NCBI GenBank assembly: GCA_030386875.1 | Contig: CM059560.1 | Location: 30,002,183-30,066,182 of the forward strand | Reading direction: 5' to 3' | Source of the DNA: Morinoia aosen | Taxonomy: Eukaryota; Arthropoda; Malacostraca; Amphipoda; Talitridae | DNA: 64,000 nt | Shown here: positions 32,565 through 60,560 of the stretch, one piece after another | Layout: each line of letters starts with the position of its first letter | Position numbering within the stretch: position 1 is the first letter of the stretch | The notes under the pieces: model-generated | Databases searched by the model: none | What the model was told of the DNA's origin: nothing | What the model saw: the letters and a program-made list of their open reading frames with translations, nothing else | Made by a program: the position numbers and the translations under genes

Positions 32565-32845
32565 GACAAAAGTAAAAATATTAGTGTCAATATGCCCCTA
32601 TTCTGCGAATACTTTTCATGTGCAGCATACTGCAGGCATTTGTAGGCAACAAACAAATATTTAAAGCAGGATTGATACATATGGTGTCGTAAAAACGCAT
32701 TACAAAGCGTATAAAATGTGATATATATACAACTCTTGAACCAATTTTGCGTTGCCTGGGTATCAATCATCAATATCATAACTAAATTATTGTGTTCAAT
32801 TTCATCTAGGGTAAATTTTGTAAACTGTATGGCTTCTGAACATAC

Positions 32846-41690: not shown

Positions 41691-42003
41691 TACAGTTGTT
41701 GCAGCCACATTTGGTTCAGCTTCAGGTGATGCTGGTGCAGTTGACGCCCAGCAGTTAGTGCTGCCGTCGCTCCAAGAGGCTCTGGTGTTGATGGTAATTC
41801 AATTTGAAGTTCCTGAAACGCAGGTGCTGCTGTTGTTCTTATTCTGCTGCAGTTGCTGCTGGAGTTACTGCTGTTGTTCTTCGTGCTGTTATTTTTTGTG
41901 TTGCTGCTGCTGCTCCTGTTGCGAGATCATACTGCTATCCATGCTGCAGCTGTTGCTGCTGCTTCTGCTCCTGCTACTGCTAGTGTCAGGATTGTCTGTT
42001 TAG
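41691..42003 (+). other. GCT/CTG-rich tail of the 15-bp array
   Basis: The GAD-frame continues through a non-repetitive segment (FGSASGDAGAVDAQQ, then LPSLQEALVLMVIQFEVPE) into Cys/Leu-rich low-complexity text and stops at 42001-42003. In another frame the last part reads AAAVAAASAPATASVRIVC, so the Ala-rich text changes frame. It resembles the Ala-rich locus at 21660-22140. Confidence 0.5.
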
Positions 42004-43340
42004 GGTCTTTATTTTCTTTATGGTAGCTTTAATGTCATGGTTTTACTTTTATCTTTGATTTAAATCGTAGATTTTATTTCAACCTATTTTGTCTTTTTTT
42101 CAATTTGCCAATATTTATAAGTCAATAAACGAGTGTGCTGCCGCCACCTGGATTGCAGGAAATAATGATTTCGAGTACGAAGAGGTGTTTTAATTTCTAT
42201 TTCAGTGACGTTATTTTACCACACAATCACATGAGCTAACGATTATTAGCTTGGTTGAACGATCATAACCGTTTATCTCGTATCAAACAGGTCATCGAAA
42301 CACTCAGGACAAGATCAAGCAGTTATTACATGATTACTAATTACCAATCCTATTTATTTTATTACTAAGAGAAACTGCTCACACACGCTATCGCAGGAGC
42401 AGTGCCAGAATGAATACAGTGCTATGTCTAAGTACATTCGCAACACCCGGCATCATACGTGGCAGCCACAAGTGCCGAAGGACAACAGAGACGGGGAGAT
42501 CCATGGTGTTATCTCCACACTTTCGACTCAGTGAAAATTGATTTCAAAGTATCCTTGGTATTGAAGGTTTACGGAGCACGATTCAACGTGTTTGCGATGC
42601 TACTTCAAATCTCTGTTCGAGGATGAAAGTGAACGCGTAGTGTCTCGGAGATACACTTTAATGATGGTGCAGTCAGCAAATGTTGAATGCCGAGAATCAT
42701 ATTCGCAAGACCAAGCCTTCAATATTTATTGGCAGGCTGTTGCTTTAGAAGTACGCTTCGACCGGCGCACCAATCAATGGAAGCGCATCGTGCTCTCTCT
42801 CAGATGTTAATTCGGTGCGTCTTTCGTCTCAGCTGACTGAGGGTGATCTACACTTCCGCTCAGCCTTGAGTGTGATTGTTATGAACAATCGCGTTCTATT
42901 GGTGTCAAAAAAATCAATTGTTATATTTTATTGCTTTAATGTTGACTCTTGTTTCTTACGACACCGATAAAACGCGTTTTTTCATAACGATCACGTTCTG
43001 TTGGTGTCACAATGAACAAGAGTCAACTTAAAAACAACAGAATAGGCTAATACTGCCCATAATTTGTTTCATATAAAAGATTCTCCAAACAAATAAATCA
43101 TGAAAAACTGTAATAATGCAATGAAAAGGAGAAAGGTTAATCATTATTTAAGACTAATTGGACCATACGTTGCGGTGGAGAGAGGAGAGGGAAGAAGGAG
43201 GCAGCAGCGCTGGCAACCAAGAATTCGAAAGAGGTTGATAAGTGTTCCTCAAAAGATTCTCGAATATATGGAAATAGATGTGGTGAGCTTTGTGGTGAGA
43301 ATAGCTTCTTCTTCTGAGGATCGCAGCTTTTAGGAGATGA
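42004..43340. other. Non-coding stretch, nothing recognised
   Basis: No supported gene. Frames of 60-77 codons (42592-42810, 43100-43333) match nothing I know. Confidence 0.45.
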
Positions 43341-43341
43341 A

Positions 43342-43700
43342 CACCTCAGAAGATATGGGATAAACAATAGGTTTAGGTCAGCTAGGTTTGTTTACCCTTT
43401 GCTCAGAGAACTGGGGCCCCCAGAGGAAATAATATAAAGGACCCGAAGTGTAGATAGATCCTCGGAACTTTTGCCTTTCGCGCCCACTTTATTTTTTCAG
43501 TTTTCATACCTTCTTCGATATCTCTTCGTTGTCTTCTCTTTATCTTCCTTCCCAACTTGCCCTTTCTATGCGCAGAGCATTTTGTATAGGAACACAACTT
43601 GTGCATTTATTGTTTTTTTTCAGTTCAAACTAAATGGTCCTTTTTATTTGCTCTCGTGATAGCCTATGTTATGGCTAGGGAGACTTGCAATAATTTAATA
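43342..43700 (+). mobile_element. SINE-like family, diverged subfamily B copy
   Basis: Related to 57530-57890 through ACAATAGGTTTAGGTCAGC, GGCCCCCAGAGG, a pyrimidine-rich middle and GGAACACAACTTGTGC. The latter is a roughly 30-bp segment missing from the younger copies. Ends at GGGAGACTTGCAATAA. No clear target duplication. Confidence 0.65.
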
Positions 43701-43756
43701 ATTTTCGAAAGGGAATACGTATTACATATTCTTGGTGTGAGAAATCATCTGAGACC

Positions 43757-44100
43757 TCCCAAGAGAGGTACGACTATTGTATCCATGGGAATTAGCGTTC
43801 TAAAGAATAAAATGTGAGGTCCCGAGCTAAAGATTAGATAGGAATTCCTTTTGTTAAAGTAGAATGTTTTTTTTCACGAAACATCTTTTTTTCGGTTCAC
43901 TGCTGACCTGTTTTTCAGCACCTCCTACTTCTTCAACTTTTATGTTTCATAAACTTCTTTCTCAACTTACTGTTTCTATGCCCCTTCTGCATAGATTCTG
44001 CGTTCCCTTATCTCCATAATAAATGGTGCCTTCTTCCCTCCTCTCTTCGGAACGTTTTTTTAGGCGGTTAGAGAGGCTTAAACTAACATCTAGTCTAATG
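43757..44100 (+). mobile_element. SINE-like retroposon copy
   Basis: Full-length diverged copy: CCTCCCAAGAGAGGTACGAC head, GGTCCCGAGCTAAAGATTAG, TTTTTTTCGGTTCACTGCTG, and tail GAGAGGCTTAAACTAACATC. Its head and flanks are too diverged for a target duplication to be seen. Confidence 0.85.
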
Positions 44101-44514
44101 TCAAAACTGGGGTTAGCACAATGGTGTTATTGAATCGTTTGATAACTAAACATGTTTGACACATATAAGTGATAGAAATTTAGCAGTTTACTCCAACACA
44201 TGGCAGCTTATGTTCGAGCGGAGTTCAAATTTGCACGGCGTAAAGTCAGTGCAAATAATTCAGGCTAATCAGCCGACGCTGGACGTACTTTAGATAGACA
44301 GAGCAAAGCTGCTGCTGTGTGTGCCAGGACGCACGTGGAGACGTGCGAGCGAGATGAGAAGAACCGCTGAACCGTGTTCAGATCTCGTTAGTTCTTCATA
44401 AGAAATGTTATTTGATTGCCACATTCCGTGATAAATGTAGCAAAAACTTATTTTAGTTTCCAGCTAGCAAAAGTTGTAAGTTTGCGACTCGATAAGCTAG
44501 CAAGTTTGATCCTC

Positions 44515-44870
44515 GCAAAACTAGCGACTTTGATCGGCTTGTTTAGGTTGGGAGAAGCCGTGTTGAAAACCGTTCTTTTCTACTGGGATACATATTTAAT
44601 CTTTCTAAGAAGAAAGAAAAACACAATTGCACGATAATATGTTGCCTCATACGCTAAAAATTTATCTCGTAAGAGGTAGTAAAATAGTTTAAATCTATTC
44701 GTTTTTACCGGTACGTATTGTAAATGAGCAATCAGCCTAGTGGTTCACATATATGCAATATACACAGAAAACGTGTTAAACAGTTTTATACCATTAACTG
44801 GAACCAAGTTCCAGCTTCAGTCATTCGACAGCATCTTGCATAGCAAGAACACTAAATCAGTTCGCCTGAG
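44515..44870 (+). repeat. Dispersed repeat C, copy 2
   Basis: Matches copies at 36300 and 53990: GGCTTGTTTAGGTTGGGAG, TCTTTCTAAGAAGAAAGAAA, AATTGCACGATAATATG, TAGTGGTTCACATAT and AACGTGTTAAACAGTTTTAT. Confidence 0.65.
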
Positions 44871-45214
44871 CGATCTATCGTGAAAGCGCTTTTTCCCGGC
44901 ACAAATGCAGGCTTTATCAGAAATATCGTCGCCCACGTCGAACTGAACGGCGGTATAAGTCACACTAATTGCTAATTTGGAGGCCTTTGCTGTTCAATCT
45001 GGGCCTGAAAAATAGCAATGAAGTTCTCCAATATCCCCAGTCACGCCACCTAATAGAGAGACTAAAGGGCGTACAATGTTTACGAAATGAATTGGTATCA
45101 AAGTATTAGACAGAACTGATACTAATTGTTTTTGATGCATCGAAGTTTAATAGTTACATAAATGTTCAACTTTTTTTGACTTGGTGAATAATATTAACGC
45201 CCACCCTCACAAAA
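44871..45214. other. Spacer, nothing recognised
   Basis: No gene or repeat seen. Confidence 0.4.
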
Positions 45215-45227
45215 GAGCATGAAATCA

Positions 45228-45583
45228 CCCCTCAGGGGGATAAAACTATTGTATCTATGGGAATTAGCGCTCCCAGGGGGACTGTGTAAGAGCCTGAGCT
45301 AAAGGTTATGTAGGCTTTCTGTTTTGTGGAAATAGAATAGGTTTTGTTTTGTTATGGACCATTTTTTTTTCGGTTCACTGCTGTCCTGTTTTTCAGCACC
45401 TACTACTTTCTTCTTAAACTTTTTTCTTGTTTCATGAACTTCTTTCCTAGCTTTCTGTTTCTGTGCACCTTGTGCATAGATTCCGCGTTCCCTCAACTCC
45501 ATACTAAATGGTGCCTTCCTTTTTCCTCTCTTGGAACATCTTCGTCGTGGTTAAGGGAGGCTAAAACTTTCTTGTATAATAAT
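45228..45583 (+). mobile_element. SINE-like retroposon copy with perfect TSD
   Basis: Flanked by the perfect 13-bp duplication GAGCATGAAATCA (45215-45227 and 45584-45596). Starts CCCCTCAGGGGGATAAAACT and ends AGGCTAAAACTTTCTTGTAT. The antisense frame 45299-45502 is intact (MELRERGIYAQGAQKQKARK and on). A second copy follows within about 20 bp. Confidence 0.9.
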
Positions 45584-45603
45584 GAGCATGAAATCATCTG
45601 TTC

Positions 45604-45985
45604 ATACTCCTCAGGGAGGTACAACTATGGCATCTACAAGAACAAGGCATTCTCAGGGGAAAAATGAGAAGTCCCAAGCTGAAATTCAGATATGCCTCCC
45701 ACTTGTTTTAACAGAATAGGTTTTTGCTAAGTTATGGACCGTCTTTTTTCGGTTCACTACGGGCGTATTTTTTAGCACCTTCGTCTTTCTTCTTCATTTT
45801 CTATCTTGCTTCGTAAACTTTATTCCTAATTTGTTGTTTCTATGGGCAGCGGATCATGTGTGGGAACACAACTTGTGCTTAGATTATCCGCTCCCTTTAA
45901 CTCATACCAAAAGGTACCTTCATGCTTCTTCTCTTCGAAACACTTTTGTTATAGTTCGGGAGACTTGAACTTATTTTTTAGCCGT
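45604..45985 (+). mobile_element. SINE-like retroposon copy, older, with 30-bp segment
   Basis: Begins CTCCTCAGGGAGGTACAACT and ends AGACTTGAACTTATTTTTTA. It carries the older-type segment GTGTGGGAACACAACTTGTG. A short possible target duplication (TTCATAC before the head and again at about 45990) is weak. Confidence 0.8.
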
Positions 45986-46114
45986 CGATTCATACGCAAA
46001 TTTTAATATCGACTTAGGAATGAGAGATGACAGAAATACACTGTTCTTGAAATCAAGGAAGGAGGCAGGCGGATCATGAGTGTTCAGGACGGAATGTCAC
46101 TTGGCAGGGGTGAA

Positions 46115-46192
46115 AGTAATGAAAGGTACATTACGCATTCACCGGCGGCACATTGCGGTGAAATCTAAGGTCGGCCTGTCACGCGATCGAAA
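46115..46192 (+). repeat. 78-bp segment, inverted copy at 48290-48365
   Basis: GAAAGGTACATTACGCATTC, CATTGCGGTGAAATCTAAGG and GTCACGCGATCG occur here and as the reverse complement at 48290-48365, roughly 90 percent alike. Part of an unidentified dispersed element. Confidence 0.8.
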
Positions 46193-46335
46193 CGCCTCTT
46201 ACTTGAATGATAACGAAACACTTTCCTCATTAATGTGCAGAAAGAAATAACTCATAATAAAGTAAAACTCATTTGGCACAGGGTATGCAAGTTATTTTCA
46301 TTGCCTGCTTTTTGGATGACCTTTGAAGCTCGAGT

Positions 46336-46665
46336 ACTCCTTAGGGGAATACAATTATTGTAGCTATTGGAATTAGCGCTCCCAGGGAGAGTAAATGAGG
46401 TCCCGAGCGAAAGATTAAGTAAGCCATCCATTTGTTAGAATAGCATAGGTTTTTTGTTATGTTACCGATAACCTTTTTTCGGTTCACTGTTGTCTTGTAT
46501 TTCAGCACCTACTACTTGCTTCAACTTGTGTTTTTTCATTAACTTCTTCAACGTACTGTTTCTACGCACCTTGTGCATAGATTCCGCATTATTTTAACTC
46601 CGTACTAAATACTACCTTCCTCTCTTTGCCTTTGCTGAGGTTAGGGAGGCTTGAACATCTAACAT
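46336..46665 (+). mobile_element. SINE-like retroposon copy with near-perfect TSD
   Basis: Flanked by CTTTGAAGCTCGAGT (46321-46335) and CTTTGAAGGTCGAGT (46666-46680), 14 of 15 bases equal. Head ACTCCTTAGGGGAATACAAT, tail GGGAGGCTTGAACATCTAA. Confidence 0.88.
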
Positions 46666-46680
46666 CTTTGAAGGTCGAGT

Positions 46681-47408
46681 TTCAAAATTCAGAAAAAACC
46701 GCTAAGCCTTGTAACATGCTGGCCAATGTTCCATTTGAAGTCAATAATCACATAAATGATGTTCCCTCGTCAACTACGGAGATTTATGCTTTGGAATGGA
46801 CACCTGATCTTGTTGTTATAAAATATTTGCGTTTGTAGAAAAATCGTCACTTGTACTCAACCGGATAAGAACTTAACTGAACTGTTTTAAGCTACAAGTA
46901 TACTACTCGTGTACGCACTCAGGTGTGCTTCTACAAATGGAAATTAGAAGGATCGTGTGAAATATTTTCCTGGTGAAAGTTATTATTGAAATGAAGTGTT
47001 TAACTTCCTTTTAATTCCATGTTCCTTTTTCGTGAAGTTGACTTAAATTTTTAAAATGAAGCAATTCTTTACAGCCCACTATTCCACAGGACGTGAAATA
47101 GTGGGCTGAAGTTTAATGCGTTTAATTCACTTACACGTGTTTTCTATCTTAAATACTATTTTATTACTCCTGAAATATGTTCTTTATTTTTAACGATTTT
47201 CTATAGCGTTCTGTTAATTTAAAACCTTCCACGATATTTATACGTACGTGACATATGAAGTCGAACGCACCATTATTTATTACCAAGTAGTAAAAATCCT
47301 CCTACAACGAAAATAAATCACTATTTTAACGGATAATTTACTCCAAAACTCTCAACACTTCAATAGAATTAGTTAAACTGAAGTTCTATAATCATCTCAA
47401 ATTTAGTC
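46681..47408. other. Spacer with a strong hairpin
   Basis: A perfect 12-bp stem, CAGCCCACTATT (47072-47083) with AATAGTGGGCTG (47097-47108), 13-nt loop. No gene seen. Confidence 0.55.
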
Positions 47409-47422
47409 ATTGAAGAAAACAA

Positions 47423-47853
47423 CCGCTCAGGAGGATACACTTTATAGTCTTTGTTACTGAAGCGCTAGAAACCTGGTTTTACTACTACTACTTCTCAGGG
47501 GGATACAACTATTGTATCTATGGGAATTAGCGCTCCCAGGGGACTATGTGAGGGCCCGACCTAAAGGTTAGGTAGGTTATCTTTTTGTTAAAATTGAATA
47601 GCTTTTTCGTTTTGTTATGGACCATCGTTTTTCGATTCACTGCTATCCTGTTTTTCAGCACCTACTACTTTCTTCTTCAACTTTTTCTGGTTTCATGATC
47701 TTCTTTTTTAGCTTACTGTTTCTATGCACCTTTTCATAAATTCCGCGTTCCTTCAACTCCATACTAAATGGTGCCTTCATCCTTCCTCTCTTGGACCATC
47801 TTTGTCGTGGTAAAGGGAGGCTAAAACTTTCTTTTATAAGATTAAGAACTAGA
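47423..47853 (+). mobile_element. SINE-like retroposon copy with duplicated head and perfect TSD
   Basis: Flanked by the perfect 14-bp duplication ATTGAAGAAAACAA (47409-47422 and 47854-47867). The inserted unit begins with a diverged extra head (CCGCTCAGGAGGATACACTT to GAAGCGCTAGAAACCTGG) about 70 bp before the normal head CTTCTCAGGGGGATACAACT. The antisense frame is open (47655-47867; RGRMKAPFSMELKERGIYE). Confidence 0.9.
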
Positions 47854-48200
47854 ATTGAAGAAAACAATTTCCAAAAAAAATGTAGTTTATAGCTCCTGGT
47901 CTGTCAGCAGTTTTATGAAAATCCTCAACGTGGTCACCGGTGGCACACGTTGCGGTCAAGGCATTCAATTTGTATTTGAGCTTACGACTGCCCGGCGTCT
48001 GCGACCCTAGTGGCTGCGAAACTCGCACAGCAGGCCCGCTGCTGTCGTTGGCTTAACAAGGTGACTGCGATGGGTTAAATTGAAGTTCAGTACTAAATTC
48101 AAATTCAATAGACTGTTGTTAAAAATTTTTATTAAATACCAAACATTAACTTGGTCTGTTCAATACCAGTAATTTTGAAAGATTGTTTAAACTTTTTCGA

Positions 48201-48263
48201 ACGACCCATCGAAGGGTCGTTTCGCAGCAGAAAAAACTTGAGCACGACCCTCCGATGGGTCGT
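48201..48263. other. Compound palindrome
   Basis: ACGACCCATCGAAGGGTCGT (48201-48220) and ACGACCCTCCGATGGGTCGT (48244-48263) are inverted copies of each other with one mismatch, and each is itself partly palindromic (ACGACCC...GGGTCGT). It could form one long hairpin or two short ones. Confidence 0.85.
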
Positions 48264-48289
48264 ATGGCAGTCAATGTGTAAGTCAGATT

Positions 48290-48365
48290 TCGATCGCGTG
48301 ACATGCCGACCTTAGATTTCACCGCAATGTTCCGCCGGTGAGTGCGTAATGTACCTTTCATTACT
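48290..48365 (-). repeat. Inverted copy of the 46115-46192 segment
   Basis: Contains CGATCGCGTGACATGCCGAC, CCTTAGATTTCACCGCAATG and GTGCGTAATGTACCTTTCAT. See the 46115 entry. Confidence 0.8.
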
Positions 48366-49300
48366 AGTGGTGGTACGACCGAAAACCAATTATTCGTTAA
48401 TTTATATTTCTCTAAATGAAATAGCATTATTTCTGGGGAAATAACGGATTTAAAATTGAATTCAGGCGTCACTTGGTTGAGGGAACTGGGAGTGAAGAGT
48501 TGATGTTTGAACAAGTACACGAAGTCATAGGATCCTTCCTCAATCTAATTTTTTTGCAACGCCAATAATAATACCGGTTCTTACTCTCAGATCCTCGTGA
48601 TTAACTTTGAATAATTTTCAGATATATTTTACTGTTAATAGTTGTACAAGAAAGGGGAAATAAATGACGAGCCTTGTAATAACGCTACTGCGAAAACGTG
48701 GAAGAAAACACATTCCGTCAAAGCAACTTCAAACAAAAATTTATACATATTTTACTTATAAATTTCTACCGTGTTCATTCATGATTATGTTCGTTGTTGA
48801 TTATTTTATTTCTTGTATTTTGGGACAATATCTTAATTGACATAAAATTCACACCAGCTCAATTAAGATTACCGCAATTAATTTGGCCATTTGGCAATTG
48901 AGCACATACGCTTTTTGAGCCTCGCAACAGTATGAAAGCAACAATAATTTTCAATGGCCGTGCATAAATGAACCAGCCGTCATGGAGCCAGGACTTGAGA
49001 GGACGAGCTGGAGCAAAGCAGGGCCGTGCTACAGCGCTGTAGGCCCTCAACTGCCAGCATAAAATGTTTTAACAGCCATAAACGTCCTGCACTTGCAGAC
49101 CAGGGCGCACGTTTGTTCATTAGACCCGTTTTGCCTCGCAAGAAAAGCTGAGGTTTCTCCGTGGGGAAGAACGACGAAGGTCTACGAGAAATGAACGCCT
49201 TGTTTTATAGAATACGAGCTCGTCAGGATACAAGCTTTCAATGATACTCAAAGTCAATGATACATTGGCGAGGAATTTTTGTAAACTTATTGGCCTCAAC
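48366..49300. other. Non-coding stretch, nothing recognised
   Basis: No supported gene or repeat. Confidence 0.4.
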
Positions 49301-49308
49301 ATACAAAA

Positions 49309-49625
49309 ACCCTTCGGGGGGTACAACTATTGTATCTATGGGAATTAGTGCTCCCAGGGGAAAATGTGTGAGAAGCCCGAGCTGAGAGTTACGTAGGCCT
49401 TTTTGTTAAAATAACATTTTTTTTGTTATATTTAGGACCACCTTTCTTCGGTTCACTGCTGTCCTGTATATCTTGTTTCCTGAACTTCTTTCTCAACTTA
49501 CTGTTTCTATGCCCCTTCTGCAAAGATTCCACATTCCCTTATCCCCATACTCAATGGTGCCATCTTCCTTTCTCTCTTTGATACTCTTTTTTGCAGCGGT
49601 CAGGGACGCTTAAACTAACATATAA
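49309..49625 (+). mobile_element. SINE-like retroposon copy
   Basis: Head CCCTTCGGGGGGTACAACTA, GCTCCCAGGGGAAAATGTGT, TTCGGTTCACTGCTGTCCTG, tail GGGACGCTTAAACTAACATA. A stretch of the pyrimidine-rich middle is deleted. No convincing target duplication. Confidence 0.85.
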
Positions 49626-49753
49626 TTTAATCAATATACATACATTCAATGATATTCTTTACAGGCTCTTTGCAAATTTCAGAAAGATTCGAGTAAGTAG
49701 CGCACAAGAAAGTTTGTTGGCAAGTTTACACACAAGGCACATACAGCTATCAT

Positions 49754-49870
49754 AACTCTTTTTCTTGAATTTATTTCCTGCCAAAACTGACTTTACACTT
49801 CAGTTCTTCTCAACTCTTTTTCTTGAATTTATTTCCCGGCAAAACTGACTTTACACTTCAGTTTTTCTCA
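49754..49870 (+). repeat. 58-bp tandem duplication
   Basis: AACTCTTTTTCTTGAATTTA and AACTGACTTTACACTTCAGT are present twice, 58 bp apart, with only a few differences, which points to a recent duplication. Confidence 0.9.
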
Positions 49871-51011
49871 TCAATAGACATAACTTAGCGAATTTTTGGA
49901 CCTTCGTTGGCACTGCAATATGTCCTAACCGAGTGTTTATTTCCCTCTGTTGGCTTAACTGATTTGTCTTGACTGAAATCGTATTTTGTACAGCTGGTGT
50001 GACCAATACGTCCTGATCGAATATTTATAAAGTAGCACCCTAAATTCTAATTTATCTTTTCAGAAGTTTTCGTGATTTACTTTCCCAATATTCCTCTAAA
50101 AAGACGTAATTGAAGAAGTTTCTCTGCTCGTGTTTCTATTTCGCTTCACTGGTGTGACCGACCTGTCTTGACTAAACTTCCTTTATACAGCTGGTGTGGA
50201 CAGCAGAGCAACCTGCTCATCCTGGACAGTCTGCTCAGCCAGTACGACAGAAGGGCAACGCCCTCCAACCACCTCAGTGAGTATCCCTGCCGCATTTGTG
50301 CGTGTGTTGCTCTAGTGTCTTGACTCATTGCATGCCTTCTGTCCTTGAGTTACGTTCATTCCAAGTTTACAGTGCGAGACATTCATTTCACTTCTCTTCA
50401 TTTTTCTACTTTAATCACGAATAACACTCTTTTCTCTCAAACAGGAGTAAAATTATAGCCTCTTCTTTTATTATAACATCCTTCCCTCGTCATGTGCTTT
50501 TAGCATTTTAAAAGAATTAATCTTTTGCAGAGAGCATTGTTTTTTAGGTAATATAGTATTTATTTCTAAAGCATCAGATTAGATTAAGCTAGCCATGAAA
50601 ATGAAATTGGAAATACGGCGGAATCTGTAAACAACGAACTAGAATACTTTTCTTATTTGGAAACGTGTGTAGTCAAATTGTGAACACAGTCGAACTTCCA
50701 ATCAAGGAATTAAAATGCTTTTCTAACGTGGTAACGCCTTCCGATTTACAGTCTTTGCCCTCCTGTGAGCGCTGTTCCCTTTAACAAAGCTTCATAGTTT
50801 TTATCATTACTAGTATTTCTTCAAGAGACAAGATTTTGATTACATTTTATCTGTCCTACATACAAAATTAAAAAATAGAAAACTCCTCTTAAAATTTTAC
50901 GACTTGAGCAACAAACAGTAAATGTGAAGAGGACACAGGTCTCTGTGTGTTGGCTCTGGATGATATTTCGGTAGGAGAGTTTGTCAAAATACAATGACAT
51001 TCTGCGCTAAC
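49871..51011. other. Spacer, nothing recognised
   Basis: TACAGCTGGTGTGAC-type words recur near 49990 and 50190 but no clear repeat unit emerges. No gene seen. Confidence 0.4.
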
Positions 51012-51025
51012 AATATATATAATGT

Positions 51026-51349
51026 GCGCTCCCAGGGAGACTGTGTGAGGGCCCGAGCTAAAGGTTAGGTAGCTCTCTTTTTGTTAAAATAACATCGGTT
51101 TGTGTTTTGTTACGGACCATCTTTTTTCGGTTCACTGCTGTCCTGTTCTTCAGCACCTACTACTTTCTTCTTCAACTTTTTCTTGTTTCATGATCTTCTT
51201 TCTTAGCTTTTTGTTTCTGTGCCCTTTCTGCTTAGATTCCGCGTTTCCTTAACTCCATACTAAATGGTGCCTTCTTCCTTCCTCTCTTTGGATAGCCTTT
51301 GTTGCGGATAGGGAGGCTTAAACTAACAAATAATCTAATCTAATAATCT
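51026..51349 (+). mobile_element. 5'-truncated SINE-like copy with perfect TSD
   Basis: Begins inside the head at GCGCTCCCAGGGAGACTGTG and is flanked by the 14-bp duplication AATATATATAATGT (51012-51025 and 51350-51363). The tail is a TAATC-type simple repeat. 5' truncation plus target duplication is the classic mark of target-primed reverse transcription. Confidence 0.9.
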
Positions 51350-51363
51350 AATATATATAATGT

Positions 51364-52560
51364 TTAATTTTGAGTACATCGACATAATTTTAGTTCTGTT
51401 GACACACTAATATTGGGTCCTTCTTTGTACCATTACTAGAGAAATTGCCACTGCGTGCAGCGCAGAGGATGGCGCTACGTAGTTGTAGGTTCTTGTGAAA
51501 GGTTCCTTCCTCTTACTTAGCTTTGTTCTCGATGACAGGAACTTATGTTGAAAAATTTTTTCGATATGGACCTGTATTAGTTAAATTAACCAACTAATGG
51601 GATCACTTAACTGTAAAAATGGCGAAGAATCAGACACTCCGGAAGGGGCCAATTAGAAACCTCGAAAAGTAAAGCTTCTATCGCAAGTTTGGCTACAAAA
51701 TTAAATTCCATTATTTGAGAAAATTCTTATTCTCTAAAACTTCGAATAACATTTTTGAGTCCTCCTTTCCACAACTAAATAAAAATATTTATCCTCCCAA
51801 ATACGTCAATGTGTAGAAATTACATGGTTATTTTCTTTCTTGTGGATATTTTTCAAGATGCACGCTCATACACAACTCCAACAAGTCAATTATTCGTAGA
51901 GAAGAGAGTTGCGTCAAGTCTACTTTAGTGGTCCATTTCGTATTGCACGCACCGTAAATTTGCCGCTGACGTTGCAGTCAGGCGTGCAACGCTCCAACGC
52001 AATAAACAACATTCTTTCGAGCGTCGTAAAGTTTATTTTTGTCTGTCCTGGGCGTCTAATTCAATGTTAAAAAATAAAGAAACGAACTTGACCTTAATTT
52101 TCATCTTCGCAGTGAAAACAGCAGCGGTAGAGGCTTAAGGGTTAATTTCGTTTTTTCTAGCCTTCAATGGCCTGCTTCAGTAAACTCGTGATTGAAAACG
52201 TAAACATAGCTGGGAAATGGGCTAGCCATTTTCTGGGTGCAACAAAATTTCTCATTGGGACTCATAAGTGTTCAAAATGAAAACTTCAGCATTTTGATTT
52301 CAGTTACTGTGAGCCTAAAATTCGGATGCGAGTACTTCATCACTGAATATTTCACATCCGTTCGGTATCCGAAAATATTCTAAGAACTGGCCAGGCTTAC
52401 ATTTAGTATTTTCTAATTAAATGTTGCTAAACATTTATTTTAGTACTAAATAAACTTAAAAATTGGTACTAAACAAACTTGGTTCTAACAAACTTGGTGC
52501 TAACCAACAAAGTGTGTGTTTATGTATTTTTGAAAAGCATTTCCATTTCGCATTGAAATT
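51364..52560. other. Non-coding stretch, nothing recognised
   Basis: A short direct repeat AAACTTGGT(T/G)CTAAC lies near 52470-52505. No gene seen. Confidence 0.4.
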
Positions 52561-52574
52561 AGATTAGATGCTAT

Positions 52575-52905
52575 TTTAAGCCTCTCTTACCTCAACAAAG
52601 ACGTTCCAAAAAGAGGGAGGAAGAAGGCACCATTTAGTATTGAGAGAAGGAAACACGGAACCTATGTACAAGGTGTAAAGAAACAGTAAGTTGAGGAAGA
52701 AGTTCATGAAACAAGATAAAAATTGAAGAAGAAAGTAGTAGGAGCTAAAAACAGGACTGCCGTAAACCGAAAAAATATGGTCCTCAACAAAGCAATAACC
52801 CTTTTATTTCAACAAAAAGACCTCCCTACCTCACAGCTAGGAACCTCATATTTTCCTTTCTGGGAGCGCTAATTCCCATAAATACAATAATTGTATCTCC
52901 TGAAG
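52575..52905 (-). mobile_element. SINE-like retroposon copy, minus strand
   Basis: Reverse-complement copy: starts (in window order) TTTTAAGCCTCTCTTACCTC and ends GTATCTCCTGAAGG. The antisense frame text NKDVPKRGRKKAPFSIE is readable on the plus strand here. Flanks CGCATTGAAAT and TACATTGAAGT may be an eroded target duplication. Confidence 0.85.
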
Positions 52906-53989
52906 GGCATTTTACATTGAAGTAACCTGAAAAGTTATGAGGAAAATCAGCATTTTTTTGAAACAGCCAGTTCTATTTTGACATCCTTGCGTATCAAGAA
53001 CGCACCACACGCGTGTACCAGTCAACTCCACAACACAAAAAACGCAACTCTTCGTTTCAATCTTGTACAAACATTTACGGCAATTGCGCACTGATAGGAA
53101 AAAATTTATGCGCAAGGAATTGCTTAACGTGCTTCCAATAATTATAAAAATATTGTTTTTGTTGTGCATGGAATTTTACCCCCGAGTCATAACATTATTC
53201 TTCCGAATGACGATTCTATAGAAGTGAATGATTATGCATTATCTCATTCTGGGACAGAGTTCAGTTCATCAACTTGACAAAAATCATTCAGTCAAGCAGA
53301 TGAAATTCGCAGGGCAATCATCGAAAGAGAAATGGCTCTGATTTTGAACAGATATGCTTAATTATAAGTAAAAAGTTCAATGGTGTTAGCATGAAGATCG
53401 TAGGAAATGTCACTTCAAACGGTGTTGCCGATTTTAGAGTCGTAACTGACAAAATGTATGCTGTGAATTATAAACATTTTTTCAAAAACTCTCATGAAGC
53501 ATTTAAAATACCTATCGCTAGTCCAGGGATGCTTGAAAATAAAAGCTCAAGCTTTCAATGGAATGGATTCTTCAATGAAAGAAAACCCAAAGAACGCTGC
53601 GTAACAACGGACAATTGACCGAGTCAGTCCTCTGTCATGAATCTAAACGAAAACTGTTAACGTTTTTAAAAAGAGTCGAATCCTCTCGCAAACTCCAAAA
53701 AAATATCCCTGAGCTCTAGAAAATGTCACAATAACAATAGAAAAAGATAGAAGCTAAATTCTATAACATAGAAACTGGTTTACATTAGACTATCCTCTTT
53801 AGAATAAAATAATTGCTTTGTTAAAAAAGCATTTAAACCAAACTTTTGTTCTGAATGAGAATTCCTAAAGGCATGGGAATACCTAGAATACAATTTATAT
53901 CGTGTTGCCCCATACATAATTTGTCTCGCTGTACTTGAATAGAAGAGTTATTTGCACCGCCGATTTTATGATCTATTGTAAGTATGTTA
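52906..53989. other. Spacer with possible decayed coding fragments
   Basis: At 53188-53361 one frame reads as protein-like text (ILPNDDSIEVNDYALSHSGT, one TGA, then QADEIRRAIIEREMALILNR), and 53391-53618 is a 75-codon open frame. I do not recognise either. They may be a broken mobile-element gene or chance. Confidence 0.3.
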
Positions 53990-54290
53990 ACTCGTTGATT
54001 ATGCTTTCGTGGGTGTTGTAGGTTTGGTTAGGGTGTGAGGAGTAAAACTGGGGTATCGACTTTACTGCTTGAATAAATTTATATCCTTCTAAGAAATAAA
54101 GAAAATATAATTGCATTATAACATTGTACCTTGTATGATAACCCTTTTTTTAAAAGAAACACGAAATGCTATTTATTTTTACCCGTATCTGAATGAACAA
54201 TTTACGTAATTACATACCTCCCATATCGCAGTCAACGTGTCAAACAATTTTATGGAGTAGGATCTTGGATCCTAATAATTAGATTCGATC
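53990..54290 (+). repeat. Dispersed repeat C, copy 3
   Basis: TAGGTTTGGTTAGGGTGTGA, CTTCTAAGAAATAAAGAAAA, AATTGCATTATAACATTG and GTCAACGTGTCAAACAATTT align with the copies at 36300 and 44515. Confidence 0.6.
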
Positions 54291-54354
54291 ATAACTTAGT
54301 TTAAAGCCTCCGTAAACGATTTTGAAAGCGAACTTGGTACCACAAACTTATACG

Positions 54355-54650
54355 TAGAAGAAGAAGGAGGAGGAAGGCACCATTCAGGGTTGAATTAAAG
54401 GAAAAGGGAATCTTTACCCAAAATATGTTCCCACACCCTGCCCACAAATACAGAGAAATTCGAAAAAGTGTGTAAATCAGTATAGAAGTTGATTAAGAAA
54501 GTAATAGGCGCTCAAAAAGATACAGTAATTAACTGAAAAAAATGGTCCATAACAAAGCCAGAAAAAAACAATCTTTTTCGAATGGGAATACCCACCTGAT
54601 CTTCAGCTTGAGACCTCACTTTCCCCCAGAGTGCACTAATTGCAGCCGAA
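54355..54650 (-). mobile_element. SINE-like copy, old, minus strand
   Basis: In window order GGAGGAAGGCACCATTCAGG to TTTCCCCCAGAGTGCACTAA. It carries the older-type segment (TATGTTCCCACACCCTG). The plus-strand text RRKAPFRVELKEKGIFTQ still matches the antisense frame of the family despite many base changes. Confidence 0.75.
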
Positions 54651-55039
54651 AATTAAAGAGAGAGGCTTTCCCTTCGAAGACAAAAATTTTAAAAAGTGTC
54701 TGAAATTACGGAATTTTTTGAAATTTCTGGTTCTATGTATGCTGAATATTGTAGTCTCTGCCTAAACCTGTATTGTTGTCCACCTGAAAAAAATCGTTTT
54801 CGCAGAGGGCAGTGAAATTATAATCTAGGGTCAAATTAAAATTGTCAATTCTCTGAAAAATTTAGAACGAGCATTTTTGTACCGAGAAGGTTTTGTATAA
54901 TTATATCCCATTCTAAACAGGGTAAAATATAACAGCTCAAACAATTACATCTGATGTACGTTCTAATTGCATTATAAGAAGATTCTTCACACAGGCAAAC
55001 CTTTTGCACGAGTGCGCAATATGAGCTTACCAAGGAGCG

Positions 55040-55400
55040 AAGCCTTCAGAAACTAAAGAATGCTAGTAGGTTTTGATTTGTTAGGTTTGTCTGTCCAACG
55101 CCATGGAGCCAGGCGGCCCAAGGAATATACTAAGTTACCTCAGTTATACAGTAGAGAAACTTTCGGGACTTTTATCTTTCGGGCCACTTAGCTTACTTAA
55201 GTTTTCTTGCCGTCTTAATTGTTTTTCTTTGTCTCTCCACCGTATTTTTCGAAACTTGATTTTGCTGCTTGCTACGTACTTCCTTTATGGGAGCATACCT
55301 TGTGCATAGTTTTCCCGTTTTTTATATACAGATCATATTATGTGGTCCCATCTGTTCACTATCTTGATATCGCCTTTGTTGTTGATAGAGAATCTTAAAC
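55040..55400 (+). mobile_element. SINE-like family, diverged subfamily B copy
   Basis: GTAGGTTTTGATTTGTTAGG, CTTTGTCTCTCCACC, TGGGAGCATACCTTGTGCAT and ATAGAGAATCTTAAACCATT match the layout of 57530-57890. It ends about 115 bp before the first supported exon and would lie in its upstream intron. Confidence 0.6.
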
Positions 55401-55515
55401 CATTGAAAATAATAATAATCATGAGAATACTCTTCCTAATGTAAACAAAAGGTGTACGAACGGAACAGTTTCAATGAATAGTATTTAGTAATAGTGTTAA
55501 AAACCTTTTTTCCAG

Positions 55516-55674
55516 AATTATTCCAAATGTCTGAATTTATGTATGAAAGATTTTGTGCATCACTTATTCGGTATGTTGAAGAAACCACTCCTACTGAAAT
55601 GTTATTTGATACATCTTACGGTATCCGAGTATGGTTACTTATGAACCCCGTCAAATTAAAGAGCCAGAGTAAAA
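55516..55674 (+). CDS. Unrecognised protein, third-last exon
   Basis: This is part of the only host-like gene I can support. The exon follows a strong acceptor (CCTTTTTTCCAG, ending 55515) and ends at a perfect donor (A then GTAAGT at 55675). It starts with two bases of a split codon, reads LFQMSEFMYERFCASLIRYV, then EETTPTEMLFDTSYGIRVWL and LMNPVKLKSQSKS, and ends in phase 1. Joined to the exon at 56719 the split codon gives Lys and the frame continues. The composition is that of an ordinary soluble protein, with no signal peptide or transmembrane run. I do not recognise the family. The phase agreement across two introns makes chance unlikely. Upstream exons were not found; introns may be long. 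Confidence 0.7.
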
Positions 55675-56718
55675 GTAAGTTATACTTACCTTGATCATCT
55701 TCCCAACCCGAGGGTGAGTAAGATCACAATAATGGCGCCACCACAACAGTGGTGAAAGTTGATTAAAAGCTCACTTATACTTCTGCGCTCAAATATTCTC
55801 TTCTTGGCCATGTTAATCGCCGGAGTGCATGGTAGCACAATATTGCTCCACAGGACCACCTTTCCTTCAAACTTTGCTCAATGATTTGAATATCATGCAA
55901 TCTCCGCAAGCTGAACCCCAAAAATTTCTTCCCTTCGCGTGAAATACAAATAAATTCCCACTAACGACTCCGGTTCAATCTGTGTAATTGAATGGGTTCT
56001 GGTAGGGAGAAGAGAAAGCTTTAACAATCATGATGCGCAAACTCAAAGTTGCTGAGCCGGGAGAGCAATGCGCTGCTGGTGAACAAACTTGAAGCCGTTA
56101 GACCTGCGAGTAATTACTGCATTTGGGCAGCACGGCGGATTGTGGAGCTTATGAATTTGATAGCAATATGAATTAATTATCCGTGAAAAGCGAAAGAATA
56201 TAATATGGTCCTGTTTTTTCTTAAATGGATTGATAGGATAAATTTTTGTTTCGCCTCGACGAATTTATTTTTTCCCCATTTCCCCACAAATTTTGAATAT
56301 GGTAATTTGCAGTTAATAAAATAAATGCTAACGCTCTTTCAGTTAATCAAATAAAACTTTCCAGAAATATTTAATAACAATTAGCTCGACGGTTGCGAAA
56401 TGAGCTTAAGATTAACATAATGTTCTCGATGGTCCCTTCCCCTTATCGTAAATGTTAGTTTAAAATTAAAACAATTCCTTGAAGGTGTGATAGTTACAAA
56501 GAATAGCTACGCGAAAGTGTCTGTTCTGGAGCAAAGAAAGTAAATGCAGAGTCCTCTATTTAGACACTGAAAAAGGATTAGGAACGCATTGGACTTGTTG
56601 GTGTAAGAAAAACAATATATGCTATTACATTGTCAGTTATGGTTTAATTTATCCAATTGAATCTACAGACTATTAAACAGATTGTTTTGATATTGTTTAC
56701 TTTCCTTACAAAATACAG

Positions 56719-56837
56719 AAATGAGTAATGGGATTTGTGGACGCTTATTTCTAGAAATGTTAAAGCGCTTAGGAAAAGAAGGCTTTCATGCAATTATTTT
56801 AGACCCCAATAGAACTTCAACTACAAATTTGAGGAGA
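56719..56837 (+). CDS. Unrecognised protein, second-last exon
   Basis: Acceptor TTTCCTTACAAAATACAG ends at 56718, and a donor GTGAGT follows at 56838. The first two bases complete the codon left open by the exon ending at 55674. It then reads MSNGICGRLFLEMLKRLGKE and GFHAIILDPNRTSTTNLRR and ends in phase 0. The upstream intron is 1,044 bp and the downstream one 145 bp, a normal size. No motif was recognised. Confidence 0.7.
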
Positions 56838-56982
56838 GTGAGTTTAGTTTGGTTTTTACTAACCAGACACTTCAGGTTTACTTCATTAGAATAAATGTGC
56901 TTACGCGTATGCGTTATTCAACTGTTTTATAATATTTTAATTGAAGTGCTTCAAAGTAAGAGGCTATGTATTCTAAATTCAG

Positions 56983-57291
56983 TGGCTGATGGGCCGAAAT
57001 TTAATATATTGTCAAGCTCGTTGGCACCGTCATCCTCAGGCGTCAGACACAGGCTTGAAAAACCCTTTAATTAAGAAAGTAATAAACAAGAAAAAAGTAT
57101 TTTTGAACTGGATGCTCAAACGTTACGATGTTTCTGTTGCCAATGGTTATTTCAACAAAAAAGACCCAGATTATCATGCAGCTTGCCACACAATTTGCTT
57201 AGAAACTCCTGAAGCTTTCAGATGTATTAAACTATTTCATTTTGCCCAGAATCATAAGCCTCTTGAGTATTTCATTCTCGTAAATAAGTGA
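56983..57291 (+). CDS. Unrecognised protein, last exon
   Basis: Acceptor TATTCTAAATTCAG ends at 56982. The exon begins in phase 0, as required by the previous donor, and reads WLMGRNLIYCQARWHRHPQA through NKKKVFLNWMLKRYDVSVAN and GYFNKKDPDYHAACHTICLE to a TGA stop at 57289-57291. With the two exons before it, this gives about 194 C-terminal residues, basic and rich in aromatic, His and Cys residues in the second half. No AATAAA lies close downstream; an ATAAAA-type string occurs at about 57363. Function unknown. Confidence 0.72.
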   Translation, partial: WLMGRNLIYCQARWHRHPQASDTGLKNPLIKKVINKKKVFLNWMLKRYDVSVANGYFNKKDPDYHAACHTICLETPEAFRCIKLFHFAQNHKPLEYFILVNK

Positions 57292-57529
57292 AAAATATGA
57301 CTGAATATCTTTCCTCATTATTCAGAAGCATTCTCACAAAATACTTCTTGGCTACTATGCCATAAAAAACTTAACAAGTTTGTGATCCTGAACTCATTTA
57401 GTATTCAATGAGTATTTGTGAAAGTTGAGTTTATGACAGCGGGTCAGTCAGCAACATCATGAAGTGACCTTCATGAAGTGATCTTCTCAGTGACCACTGG
57501 TGGATCACTTCGCAGTCAAAGTGTTGAAG

Positions 57530-57890
57530 CTCCTCAGGGGACACGGGCTAGGCAATAGGTTTAAGTTACTTAAGTTTGTCGGTCCTCTACTATAGGAACT
57601 AGTGACTCCCTCCTCACCCCTTCAGGGGATATAGTGTTAGGTTACCTTAGCTATCGATATGCCTTTGCGACTTCGGGTACTCACTTTACTTCTTTCATTT
57701 CTTATGCTTTTTTCCCTATCTCGCCTTTGTATTTTCTTACTCTTCCTTCTCAACTTGCGGTCTCTAAGAGCAGGGTATCCTGGGTGGGAACAGACCTATT
57801 GGATAGATTGCGTGTTTTCTAACGTCAATATCAAATGACCCCTTCTCTTCGCTCTCTTGAGATCGCCTGTGCTGTGGTTAGAAAGTCCTA
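57530..57890 (+). mobile_element. SINE-like family, diverged subfamily B copy
   Basis: Head GCTCCTCAGGGGACACGGGC, GGCAATAGGTTTAAGTTAC, a pyrimidine-rich middle, GGGTGGGAACAGACCTATTG, and tail TGTGGTTAGAAAGTCCTAAA. The nearest relatives are 43342 and 55040. Confidence 0.7.
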
Positions 57891-59080
57891 AATTAAGATT
57901 ATACACACTAAAACACACTAAATATAACACACTAAAACATTACAATTCCAATGGATGACGCATCTCACACTGGTCCTGCAACGAGAAGATGAGGCTTTCT
58001 CAAGAATCATACCGCATGCTGAAAGCTAACCCACAAACTTTTCCCTCTCGTCGTAGTCAGAAAACCTGCAACTGCTTTACAAGCTGGCTTTAAATTTTGT
58101 CCTCGAACGTTTGAAATAGTACGCTACATCAAATCTTACTGTAAATTTATTATTTCTTCCTTTTTTCTCTGATTCCTTAGTTCTTGGATAAATTGTTTCG
58201 TTTTTAATACTGATAAGTACCTGGTTCCATTTAGCCTGGGGCTCAAGCGGAATTTACTTCGTTGGCTGGGGTGACATTCAAGTTGAGTGGACAGCAAAGG
58301 ATGCCGTATAATTCAATAAGGGACTAATGAAAGCCGTCAGAGCCTCCGCAGGAGGCGGCTCAAGTCAAAGTTTCAAGTGGTCGCGAGCTATCTGAAATTC
58401 CTTGCCGACTTAAATTTTTGCAGTCTAAATTTAAGACCGCAATCTAACCTAGTCGACCAATTCATAGGTAGGACCATTGCTCAGTCTGCAGTTGTAGGCT
58501 CGGTCAAATGTCCATCGTTCGATAAGTTGATTAGATTAAATTCTCCGGTGACACGGTAACACCGCGGAGATATATGAGTCGAGGCTGCTAAATACTCATG
58601 AGGAAATAATTCATTGTCAGCCTTAATTTTTCTTGAGTCATCTTAATTTTTCATCTTAATTTTTCATCTTAATTTTAATTAATTCCTAATTAATCTTAAT
58701 TAAAAATAAATTTAATTTAATAAGTCATCTTAATTTTTCGGTAAGGCTAGCGTAATTCATAAATAAACGCAGGAAAGGCATTACCATTTCGTCCTGATAT
58801 TCCAATAGATAAAGTATTTCCATTGTAATTAGGACGCAAAAACTGGAGTGTTCATGCATTTTAACCTCAGAAAAGAAACGGCGAGGTTCCATTTCCGAAC
58901 AGGAAATGTGCAGGTAAATTAGATTCATGGAATTCGCAAGCAATTACCATGATAAAACGTGTGAAAATTATCTCTGGACTCACGTGGTGCGAGCTTGTCA
59001 TTGTCAGTCACTTCATTTTACAAGCTTTGAAACTTGTTATAACCATCGAAACAGATCAGACATGTGTGGCAGCCGGTTAA
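57891..59080. other. Non-coding stretch with AT-rich simple repeat
   Basis: TCATCTTAATTTTT-type words repeat around 58630-58745. A GC hairpin, GAGCCTCCGCAGGAGGCGGCTC-like, lies at about 58340. A 60-codon frame at 58377-58559 is unrecognised. Confidence 0.4.
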
Positions 59081-59085
59081 GCATA

Positions 59086-59280
59086 ATCTGGTAAACACAT
59101 GTGGCAATCTGGTAAACAAATGTAGCATTTGTCAAACCTGTCAACTTACAAGTGGTCAAACATTTCATCATACAACTTGTCAAACATTTCATCATACAAC
59201 TGGTCAAACATTTCATCACACAACAGGTCAAACATTTCATCACACAACTGGTCAAACTTGTCATGTAGTTACTGGTTAAA
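59086..59280 (+). repeat. 24-bp tandem array
   Basis: GGTCAAACATTTCATCATAC plus AACT starts at 59154, 59178, 59202 and 59226 with a partial fifth unit; degenerate relatives lie before 59154. Open frames here on both strands follow from the multiple-of-three period. Confidence 0.93.
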
Positions 59281-59544
59281 CTTCCTGTTGCAACCTAATG
59301 AAACACCGGGTAGGAGGGACCCAATCAAGTATGGCACGTACCAGGCGGTAAGTCAACTGTCCAGTTGATGCTTTAAAATTGCGTGCGTTTGAACTCCGTA
59401 CATGGCTTATATTAAACGGTCATGCGAGGGATTACCTGCCGACCAGTTGCTCGAGATGACAAAGTGTAGTGCAAGATGCACAATGAAGACAAAACGCACG
59501 TTGGAAAATTTTGCAACGGTGGTGTAAACTTTCACCTAGCGCCT

Positions 59545-59790
59545 TTTTCAATGAGGAAGATACAACTGTAGTTCCTATGAGAAATAATGCTCCCAGAGAG
59601 AAGATGTGCATGTGATCCCTTCTTGTTGTTGTAATAGAACAAATTCTCGTTCATCACGAACCATCTTTTTTTCGGTTCAGTACCGTTTTGTTTCATTTAC
59701 TTCTGTTTTCAAAATATATTTAGTTTCGTAATCTTCCTTCATAACTAGCTGAATCTGTTCACATGGTGTGGGGACAGCTTAGTGAAAAAC
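59545..59790 (+). mobile_element. SINE-like copy, 5' part
   Basis: GATACAACTGTAGTTCCTAT, AATGCTCCCAGAGAGAAGAT, TTTTTCGGTTCAGTACCGTT and CATGGTGTGGGGACAGC follow the family layout. The matching 3' end appears about 700 bp further on (60485-60560), so this copy may have been split by a later insertion. Confidence 0.7.
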
Positions 59791-60443
59791 GTCCGAAATC
59801 CCGTAATTCCTCATTTAAGAAGACCGTTTGGGTTCAAAATCCAAAAAAACTCAATTATCTGTTGTTTACAGTATGTCACAGAGACTTTTTAATTTAGCGA
59901 TCTGCTTCCCTGCTTCGTAAGAGTGTTAGTTCGTCTGCTACAGCTTGCGAAAGGCCAGTCACTTACGTCTTTAGTACACGGCCAGTGACGAGTTTGTCAG
60001 ACTCTCATGAAAACTTGAACTTGACATTTGAAATGCTACTTCTCCCACAGTTTTAAAGGTACAGGAATAGCAAATACATCAATCGACAGGGCCTTAAAAA
60101 AGCTAGAAAATTGGTTCATGAGTTATTTGAAAAACTTTAATTTGAAAATTATAACAGAAATAAGAGGTCAAAATTAAAAAATACATATATTTAGAAAAAT
60201 ATTCCAAAATTCAACGAATTAAGATATCGAAATTCAACTCCAATGTTTCTTTAGATAATTATTTTAGCCGTCCAAATTAACACGATGCTAGTTCTGTAAC
60301 TTCAAAATTGTGGGAGGAGGCCTATTTTCCGAAATACCTTTTCTCAGTTTTTTTTTTAATTCAAATTTCTTATAAGATTCCGATAAAACACATGAGTCAA
60401 GGTCAATTTTTACATCATTTTACAATTAGAGTGAAAATTTTAT

Positions 60444-60474
60444 AAAAAATCCGTCAAGAAATGACGGATTTTTT
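60444..60474. other. Perfect 13-bp hairpin followed by T run
   Basis: AAAAAATCCGTCA (60444-60456), loop AGAAA, TGACGGATTTTTT (60462-60474). It looks like a bacterial intrinsic terminator, but nothing around it is prokaryotic, so no terminator function is claimed. Confidence 0.85.
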
Positions 60475-60484
60475 AGCCGAACAG

Positions 60485-60560
60485 TCCCCTTGAAAATATC
60501 TCTTGGGAACCCCTTTGATGTGGTTAGAGCAGCTTTCACTAACATCTGATCTAACCTAAT
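60485..60560 (+). mobile_element. SINE-like copy, 3' fragment
   Basis: CTCTTGGGAACCCCTTTGAT, GTGGTTAGAGCAGCTTTCAC and TAACATCTGATCTAACCTAA equal the 3' end and TAATC-type tail of the family. It is probably the displaced end of the 59545 copy. Confidence 0.65.

Follow-up and report, generated by a model that had tools for sequence, protein, structure and literature searches.

The orientation of retroelements within genes usually shows a modest antisense excess, and the respective parts of insertion and selection in producing it are debated. Here we describe a retroposon of about 350 bp, resembling a short interspersed element (SINE), which forms a dense cluster in a stretch of 64,000 nucleotides (C5:30002183-30066182, hereafter the window; the genome comprises 1.99 Gb in 29 contigs) and which lies almost exclusively on the sense strand of the host genes examined, few as these are. 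Reportedly, SINEs headed by a small nuclear RNA (snRNA) were grouped as SINEU by Kojima in 2015. These and the present element are alike in having a head that is not derived from a tRNA, however, the element gave no match to U1 or another snRNA in permissive Rfam scans. SINE heads typically derive from small RNAs, and for two bird families the source of the head is not known (PMC7245038). Like our element these are short, mobilized by a long interspersed element (LINE) and headed by a sequence from no known RNA, but they carry GC-rich heads on bipartite RTE sequences, and the present element differs from them also in its extreme strand rule (PMC7245038). With respect to orientation, human L1 insertions in apparently repair-proficient cells were 62.1% antisense and 37.9% sense, the contrast with repair-deficient lines being given with a pooled p of 0.049 and a single-line p of 0.292, and transcription-coupled repair has been proposed to remove the sense events, that is, those on the template strand (PMC5717806). 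L1 is therefore comparable in that its orientation is proposed to be partly set at insertion, with sense corresponding to the template strand, however, it is antisense-biased, and more weakly, whereas our element is nearly all sense in the genes tested (PMC5717806). Human Alu SINEs share a sense excess with the element; against a general antisense bias, theirs is reported for 20-200 bp from exons and is ascribed to selection (PMC3088655). No comparable sense-strand rule was found among the titles or abstracts that searches of the open-licence literature listed, and three exact words of the element had no match in the text of papers.

Anatomy, mobilization and copies

Loci were taken around start words (40 loci, from the first hundred listed on contig C1, which are not a random genome sample), and a consensus of 36 aligned full copies, 75-94% identical to it, is about 350 bp long, begins CCCCTCAGGGGGATACAAC and ends GGGAGGCTTAAACTAAC, followed by a tail of (TAATC)n or (TAA)n. 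In the initial annotation of the window the unit began two bases too late; because target duplications usually stop two bases before that point, the true 5' end includes a further CC upstream (CCCCTCAGGGGG). An older type (B) has the 3' half and tail in common with this main type (A) and carries a longer, different head.

The duplication test covered 87 records and 136 hits, among which 96 three-prime-complete copies had enough flank. Exact target duplications of 10-18 bp were present in 29 of these 96, vs. 2 of 473 when 3' flanks were swapped between copies, and the 29 rows comprise 22 full-length and seven 5'-truncated copies. A weak T|T target is apparent, with T before the duplication in 20 of the 29 and as its first base in 17, and the 5' end is fixed, given that 51 of 100 three-prime-complete copies begin within the first five positions. 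Counting against these figures, at least three of the 29 rows are repeats of other rows (two between L017 and L019, one between L011 and L042), the duplications in L011 and L042 sit within TTA repeats, and that in L095 (10 bp) is doubtful and may be tail against tail. Two of the 22 full-length rows repeat others, and four truncated copies with clear duplications are left (window 51021, two in L040 and one in L093). Mobilization by a LINE-type machinery, as the initial annotation had supposed, is borne out by the duplications, the 5' truncation, the variable microsatellite tails and the fixed 5' end. An origin of the element as a retroposon through target-primed reverse transcription is well supported, this anatomy being directly observed. 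Nor does the consensus run into a longer LINE, which had been named as the contrary case: most duplication-bearing copies are full-length, the duplication adjoining one common 5' end.

The family is large. Exact matches in the genome number 21,688 for a 16-base start word (reversed control 0), 36,218 for a 16-base body word (reversed control 2) and 1,610 for a 30-base word from the youngest subfamily (control 0). The body word is present in 13 of 26 hits from two samples that were not picked by words (window 5/14, introns 8/12) and in just 2 of 24 hits at loci picked through the older B type, and a rough estimate puts the family total at 70,000 copies or more. Among the young copies, three from two contigs share 99.4-99.7% identity, therefore movement has been recent.

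In the window, a profile built from nine copies found 15 places, 14 of them within 43.4-60.5 kb, and the 5' word of the unit was seen seven times with at most three mismatches where 0.18 were expected. With a second profile for the B type, 14 copies were found in 43.2-60.5 kb, 12 plus and two minus, and one more at 28843, in line with the earlier count of about 14 mostly plus copies in 17 kb. By the two profiles the copies lie at 43214 (to 43704), 43759, 45230, 45609, 46339, 47494, 49311, 51021, 52906 (minus), 54642 (minus), 55041 (to 55445), 57417 (to 57945) and 59554, with a fragment at 60499. Their description as one family of about 350 bp holds for most copies; those at 43214, 55041 and 57417 are of the older type, with only the 3' half in common. 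Five copies had been credited with target duplications, and exact ones are present at 28843, 45230 and 51021, so that five exact ones were not confirmed; the candidates at 49311 and 52906 are eroded ones, judged by eye from the flanks. The one 5'-truncated copy with a duplication was correctly recognized (51021, 14 bp, beginning at about unit position 33). The features are as follows.

28827-28840, plus: target duplication, 5' copy, 14 bp, TATTAACTAAAAGA
28841-29192, plus: complete copy, youngest subfamily, starting with CC and ending in a TAATAAACTAAAC tail, 99.4% identical to a copy in L038
29193-29206, plus: target duplication, 3' copy, 14 bp
43214-43704, plus: older long-headed (B) relative (second profile)
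43759-44093, plus: A-type copy (profiles)
45215-45227, plus: target duplication, 5' copy, 13 bp, GAGCATGAAATCA
45228-45583, plus: full A-type copy (45230) with TAA-type tail
45584-45596, plus: target duplication, 3' copy, 13 bp
45609-45975, plus: old A-type copy, closely 3' of the 45230 copy
46339-46664, plus: A-type copy (profile)
47494-47836, plus: A-type copy (profile)
49311-49625, plus: A-type copy (profile)
50190-50277, plus: candidate exon, reads NLLILDSLLSQYDRRATPSNHL, ligand-gated-channel-like by eye only
51012-51025, plus: target duplication, 5' copy, 14 bp, AATATATATAATGT
51026-51349, plus: 5'-truncated A-type copy (51021) with TAATC tail
51350-51363, plus: target duplication, 3' copy, 14 bp
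52564-52906, minus: A-type copy, minus-strand exception (profiles)
54360-54642, minus: A-type fragment, the other minus-strand exception (profiles)
55041-55445, plus: B-type copy (second profile)
57417-57945, plus: B-type copy (second profile)
59554-59767, plus: old A-type fragment (profiles)
60499-60547, plus: 3'-terminal fragment (profiles)

Clusters of this kind could in principle arise by local tandem or segmental duplication. In keeping with this, L017 and L019 (C1:1.393 and 1.433 Mb) look like inverted duplicates with the same insertions, a two-copy composite has seemingly been amplified (in L011 and L042), and some neighbours, namely two L094 copies and the pair 45230 and 47494, resemble each other more than expected. 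As a general cause it is contradicted by the separate target duplications and by the lack of any mean excess similarity of neighbours, and we give it scarcely any credence. Compared with age-matched distant copies, neighbours had a mean residual of 0.003 (sd, or standard deviation, 0.033; 68 near pairs); being no more alike, they indicate that clusters are mainly independent insertions. Several copies lie only 8-15 bp from another copy, a spacing that we interpret as one target used twice.

Orientation along contigs and within genes

Neighbouring copies tend to share a strand. Among the first 100 start-word places listed on C1, all 31 pairs less than 10 kb apart are on the same strand (adjacent pairs 22/22), as are 33 of 38 at 10-30 kb. 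When 65 start-word places and 100 body-word places over C1:0-7.65 Mb are combined, they amount to 137 copies, in which agreement is 66/72 for pairs below 10 kb, 41/48 at 10-20 kb, 68/125 (54%) at 20-50 kb and, past 100 kb, close to one half; these copies form 42 strand runs vs. 69.1 +/- 5.8, with none of 20,000 shuffles giving as few. Within loci of 3.1 kb, 39 of 43 neighbour pairs agree. The youngest subfamily (100 listed of 1,610 places) has agreement in 8/8 pairs below 20 kb, where uniform placement expects 1.7 pairs and reached a maximum of 8 in 2,000 trials, and in 5/6 at 20-60 kb. By rising age of the younger partner, neighbours agree in 27/29 (less than 10% diverged), 30/35 and 4/4 cases. 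A plus/minus pair about 700 bp apart was seen at three C1 places (L011, L042 and C1:7216504/7217217); three of the six discordant pairs below 10 kb are this pair, which looks like an amplified composite, the third place being judged from its spacing.

The direction of host genes was established from exons with database matches. Ligand-gated channel exons were mapped with Pfam PF02931, and eight stretches of 4.4 kb from same-strand exon pairs were fixed as an intron test before their letters were seen. All 12 hits (copies or fragments) were sense, and all fell in three introns, L093 in a plus gene and L094 and L095 in minus genes. For other genes, 1,187 open frames of at least 45 codons were collected in 59 loci and 1,160 were scored, the best 170 being judged by eye and 20 run against Pfam, which confirmed host exons of GST, dynein intermediate chain and eIF4A3. 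Delta GST exons flank one sense copy in L013, the dynein intermediate chain exon in L061 is accompanied by one sense copy and the eIF4A3 exon in L066 by two, so that in the six genes combined 16 of 16 hits or copies are sense. A putative exon in L063, on the same strand as its copy, was left out of the gene counts. The window gene is plus, as judged from Pfam channel-domain exons on the plus strand some 40 kb downstream (C5:30092822 and 30097796). The predominance of plus copies first seen in the window holds (12 of 14). Strand coherence is moreover widespread in the genome and, in the genes tested, follows gene direction. A near-absolute sense orientation in the genes examined is well supported, although these are few.

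Several points weigh against such a rule. Copies were found in only six genes that have database-matched exons (16 hits or copies in all) besides the window gene, and this limited sample includes the GST, dynein and eIF4A3 exons, which were found once the strand rule was known. None of eight loci centred on channel exons (25.6 kb) held a copy and five of the eight tested introns held none, so not all genes are targets. The gene in L093 is the least sure because its two channel-domain matches overlap in profile range and the second is weak, with stops; the intron test without it gives 10/10 sense. In the window, two of 14 copies are minus, and the candidate exon at 50190-50277 has no profile or PDB match. 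Moreover, the pair counts are mutually dependent and come from one contig (the young-copy set also from C2), and the words chosen as orientation controls gave none that is usable, TAAAGAGGTTGGGTCG and CGTTTTACATGAATGACA because the ends of the elements that contain them are inverted and AACAAGTAACAAGTAA, with just 155 matches, because it is too rare.

The word TAAAGAGGTTGGGTCG has 14,848 matches, many of the 100 listed lying in opposite-strand pairs about 80-240 bp apart, and it probably belongs to the inverted termini of a short DNA element that is abundant. Nucleotide skew was also considered (T exceeds A in 28 of 37 loci in the element direction), and was discarded because eroded copies on their own are rich in T and no skew is present in the sequence flanking eight exons.

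Strand might instead be set by replication direction or another large chromosome domain, independently of genes. Coherence over tens of kb, with some same-strand runs spanning 100-510 kb in the merged C1 set, is what such a cause would give, but agreement has fallen to 54% at 20-50 kb, the copies in six genes are without exception sense, and opposite-strand genes carry opposite-strand copies at close range. The L094 gene (minus, with minus copies) lies about 100-150 kb from the plus window gene on C5, which weighs against a large-domain cause, and we consider this explanation highly improbable.

Selection is a much more serious contender. If insertion were random with respect to strand, antisense copies in genes were quickly selected against and open chromatin gave the clusters, the same picture would result, and this fast removal has to be counted against an origin at insertion. 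It is the usual account of intronic element orientation in mammals, the purine-rich antisense strand (seen in the consensus by inspection) could disturb splicing, and human SINEs are likewise sense-enriched near exons (PMC3088655). However, that human excess spans 20-200 bp from exons, which is narrower than here (PMC3088655), the consensus has a single AATAAA, on its sense strand, which would favour antisense copies, and pairs of the young subfamily are already fully coherent (8/8), as are 27 of 29 pairs whose younger partner is less than 10% diverged. Selection of this kind is quite possible, although it is not the explanation we favour.

We instead favour, with a probability of roughly one in two, a high-copy, recently active, non-autonomous and LINE-mobilized retroposon whose sense strand is set by a transcription-linked nick on the template strand. 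Both the A type of about 350 bp and the older long-headed B type are moved by LINE machinery, acting on RNA that would be a product of RNA polymerase II (Pol II) and probably part of host introns. A sense copy made by target-primed reverse transcription implies that the template strand was nicked first. Priming nicks would thus nearly always fall in the host gene's template strand, and the sense strand of the element would end up in the coding strand. The window cluster would represent one gene stretch that received many independent insertions of differing age. The origin of the rule at the time of insertion is what we infer from the coherence of young copies.

Head, transcript and partner LINE

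An Rfam scan of the window at gathering thresholds gave no hits. Scanned permissively, one A copy (at E values up to 10) and four loci with copies of the A or B type (at E values up to 2) gave only unrelated low scores and no tRNA, 5S, 7SL or spliceosomal RNA; ARAGORN found no tRNA in the window. The best pair of A and B boxes has five mismatches and was equalled in 32 of 40 (A type) and 31 of 40 (B type) mononucleotide shuffles. The head is therefore, as first described, of unlisted origin and without clear promoter boxes when judged against Rfam 15 and shuffles, and the comparison with tRNA, 7SL, 5S and snRNA families that had been suggested as a check gave no match in the Rfam scans. A U1 snRNA head was considered, as the CAGGGGGATAC start looked U1-like by eye, and found no support in the permissive scans. 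The element has the general features of a SINE, in that it is short, non-coding, high in copy number and dispersed, with target duplications and a LINE-type tail. We nonetheless label it only SINE-like, because its head has no tRNA, 7SL or 5S match, and hence no RNA polymerase III (Pol III) promoter head of such an origin, and no A/B boxes above chance.

The first half of the A consensus contains T runs (T5, T5, T6 and T5), and runs of 4-7 T are present in the three youngest copies. T runs of this length stop Pol III, so transcription by Pol II is likelier, and the RNA of the element would on sequence grounds be made by Pol II, probably within host introns. We may go further and suppose a promoterless retroposon carried in host intron RNA, re-inserted by transcription-coupled target-primed reverse transcription with priming almost confined to template-strand nicks and so spreading one-way through transcribed genes; this fuller scheme is tentative and we regard it as less likely than not.

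The head in which a hairpin was noted has a fold no more stable than shuffles (z 0.21), and the hairpin is missing from the B consensus by inspection; a stable head structure was rejected for both types (z 0.21 for A, 0.73 for B). A 3' stem-loop is unproven, with a single-sequence z of -1.78 (16 of 200 shuffles equally stable) and a consensus fold of 22 tail variants that has five outer pairs, none of them changed on both sides.

Searches with RVT_1 and Exo_endo_phos_2 gave many open LINE frames among the best 150 matches each. The 3' stretches compared with the element were drawn from L069-L078, L087 and L096-L101, about ten families by our grouping, with 14 LINE ends in a whole-tail test and 15 in a core test (L070 and L072 were omitted as sisters of L069 and L071). 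A terminal tail is evident in nine of them (L069, L071, L073-L077, L097 and L101), L087 represents a degenerate copy that carries RNase H, the L078 stretch ends 110 bases after the stop, and those of L096, L098, L099 and L100 may end short of the true LINE end. This comparison of 3' ends, also suggested at the outset, gave no significant match in 15 stretches, six of which may miss the true LINE end.

These ends bear on the view that the element is itself a LINE 3' end, or an internally deleted LINE derivative, and not a SINE with its own head. Its tails are of LINE type, and in the whole-tail test a weak likeness was seen to L074 (3 of 60 shuffles as good for the youngest tail, 7 of 60 for TAATC) and to L087 (5 of 60 for TAA). 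In the core test, the score of 18-19 with L074/L075 is reached by 8-13 of 400 shuffles at that end alone, but by 151-215 of 400 over all ends. On the sense strand, the consensus and the 14 ends have no exact match longer than nine bases in common, and the fixed 5' end also argues against such a derivation, which we judge unlikely.

In the LINE families of L069-L077 a single frame of about 1229-1248 codons is followed by a very short 3' untranslated region (UTR) and an AAGTAAC-like tail. One of them (L069/L070, a frame of 1236 codons) has a 17-base exact antisense match, GCGCTAATTCCCATAGA, to the head of the element; this sits in the 3' UTR directly before the LINE tail, and the longest such match in 300 shuffles of the 14 ends was 16 bases.

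Surrounding sequence and meaning of the strand rule

Other features of the window include a CCTAA-type array at 30183-30248, and the GST in L013 has its best solved relatives in the delta class; from these two the genome looks to be of arthropod type. On the minus strand at 33511-34935, a 474-codon frame with an RVT_1 match and a C-terminal part that is GIY-YIG-like by eye is probably a Penelope-like element, and a minus-strand frame at 31914-32597, with an HTH_Tnp_Tc5 match slightly below the cut-off, is perhaps a fragment of a pogo/Tc5-type transposase. Two arrays were also seen: a large 15-bp minisatellite at 38878-41708 (about 156 and 32 copies, open in several frames), and a 92-bp unit at 17777-18771 in about eleven copies that are 98% alike.

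If the family is almost purely sense in genes, its tens of thousands of copies, some of them nearly identical, would make the question of insertion vs. selection directly testable, as the choice of strand at insertion could be read from those that are polymorphic. Should the strand rule be true, the element would also serve to mark gene direction naturally where a genome lacks annotation.

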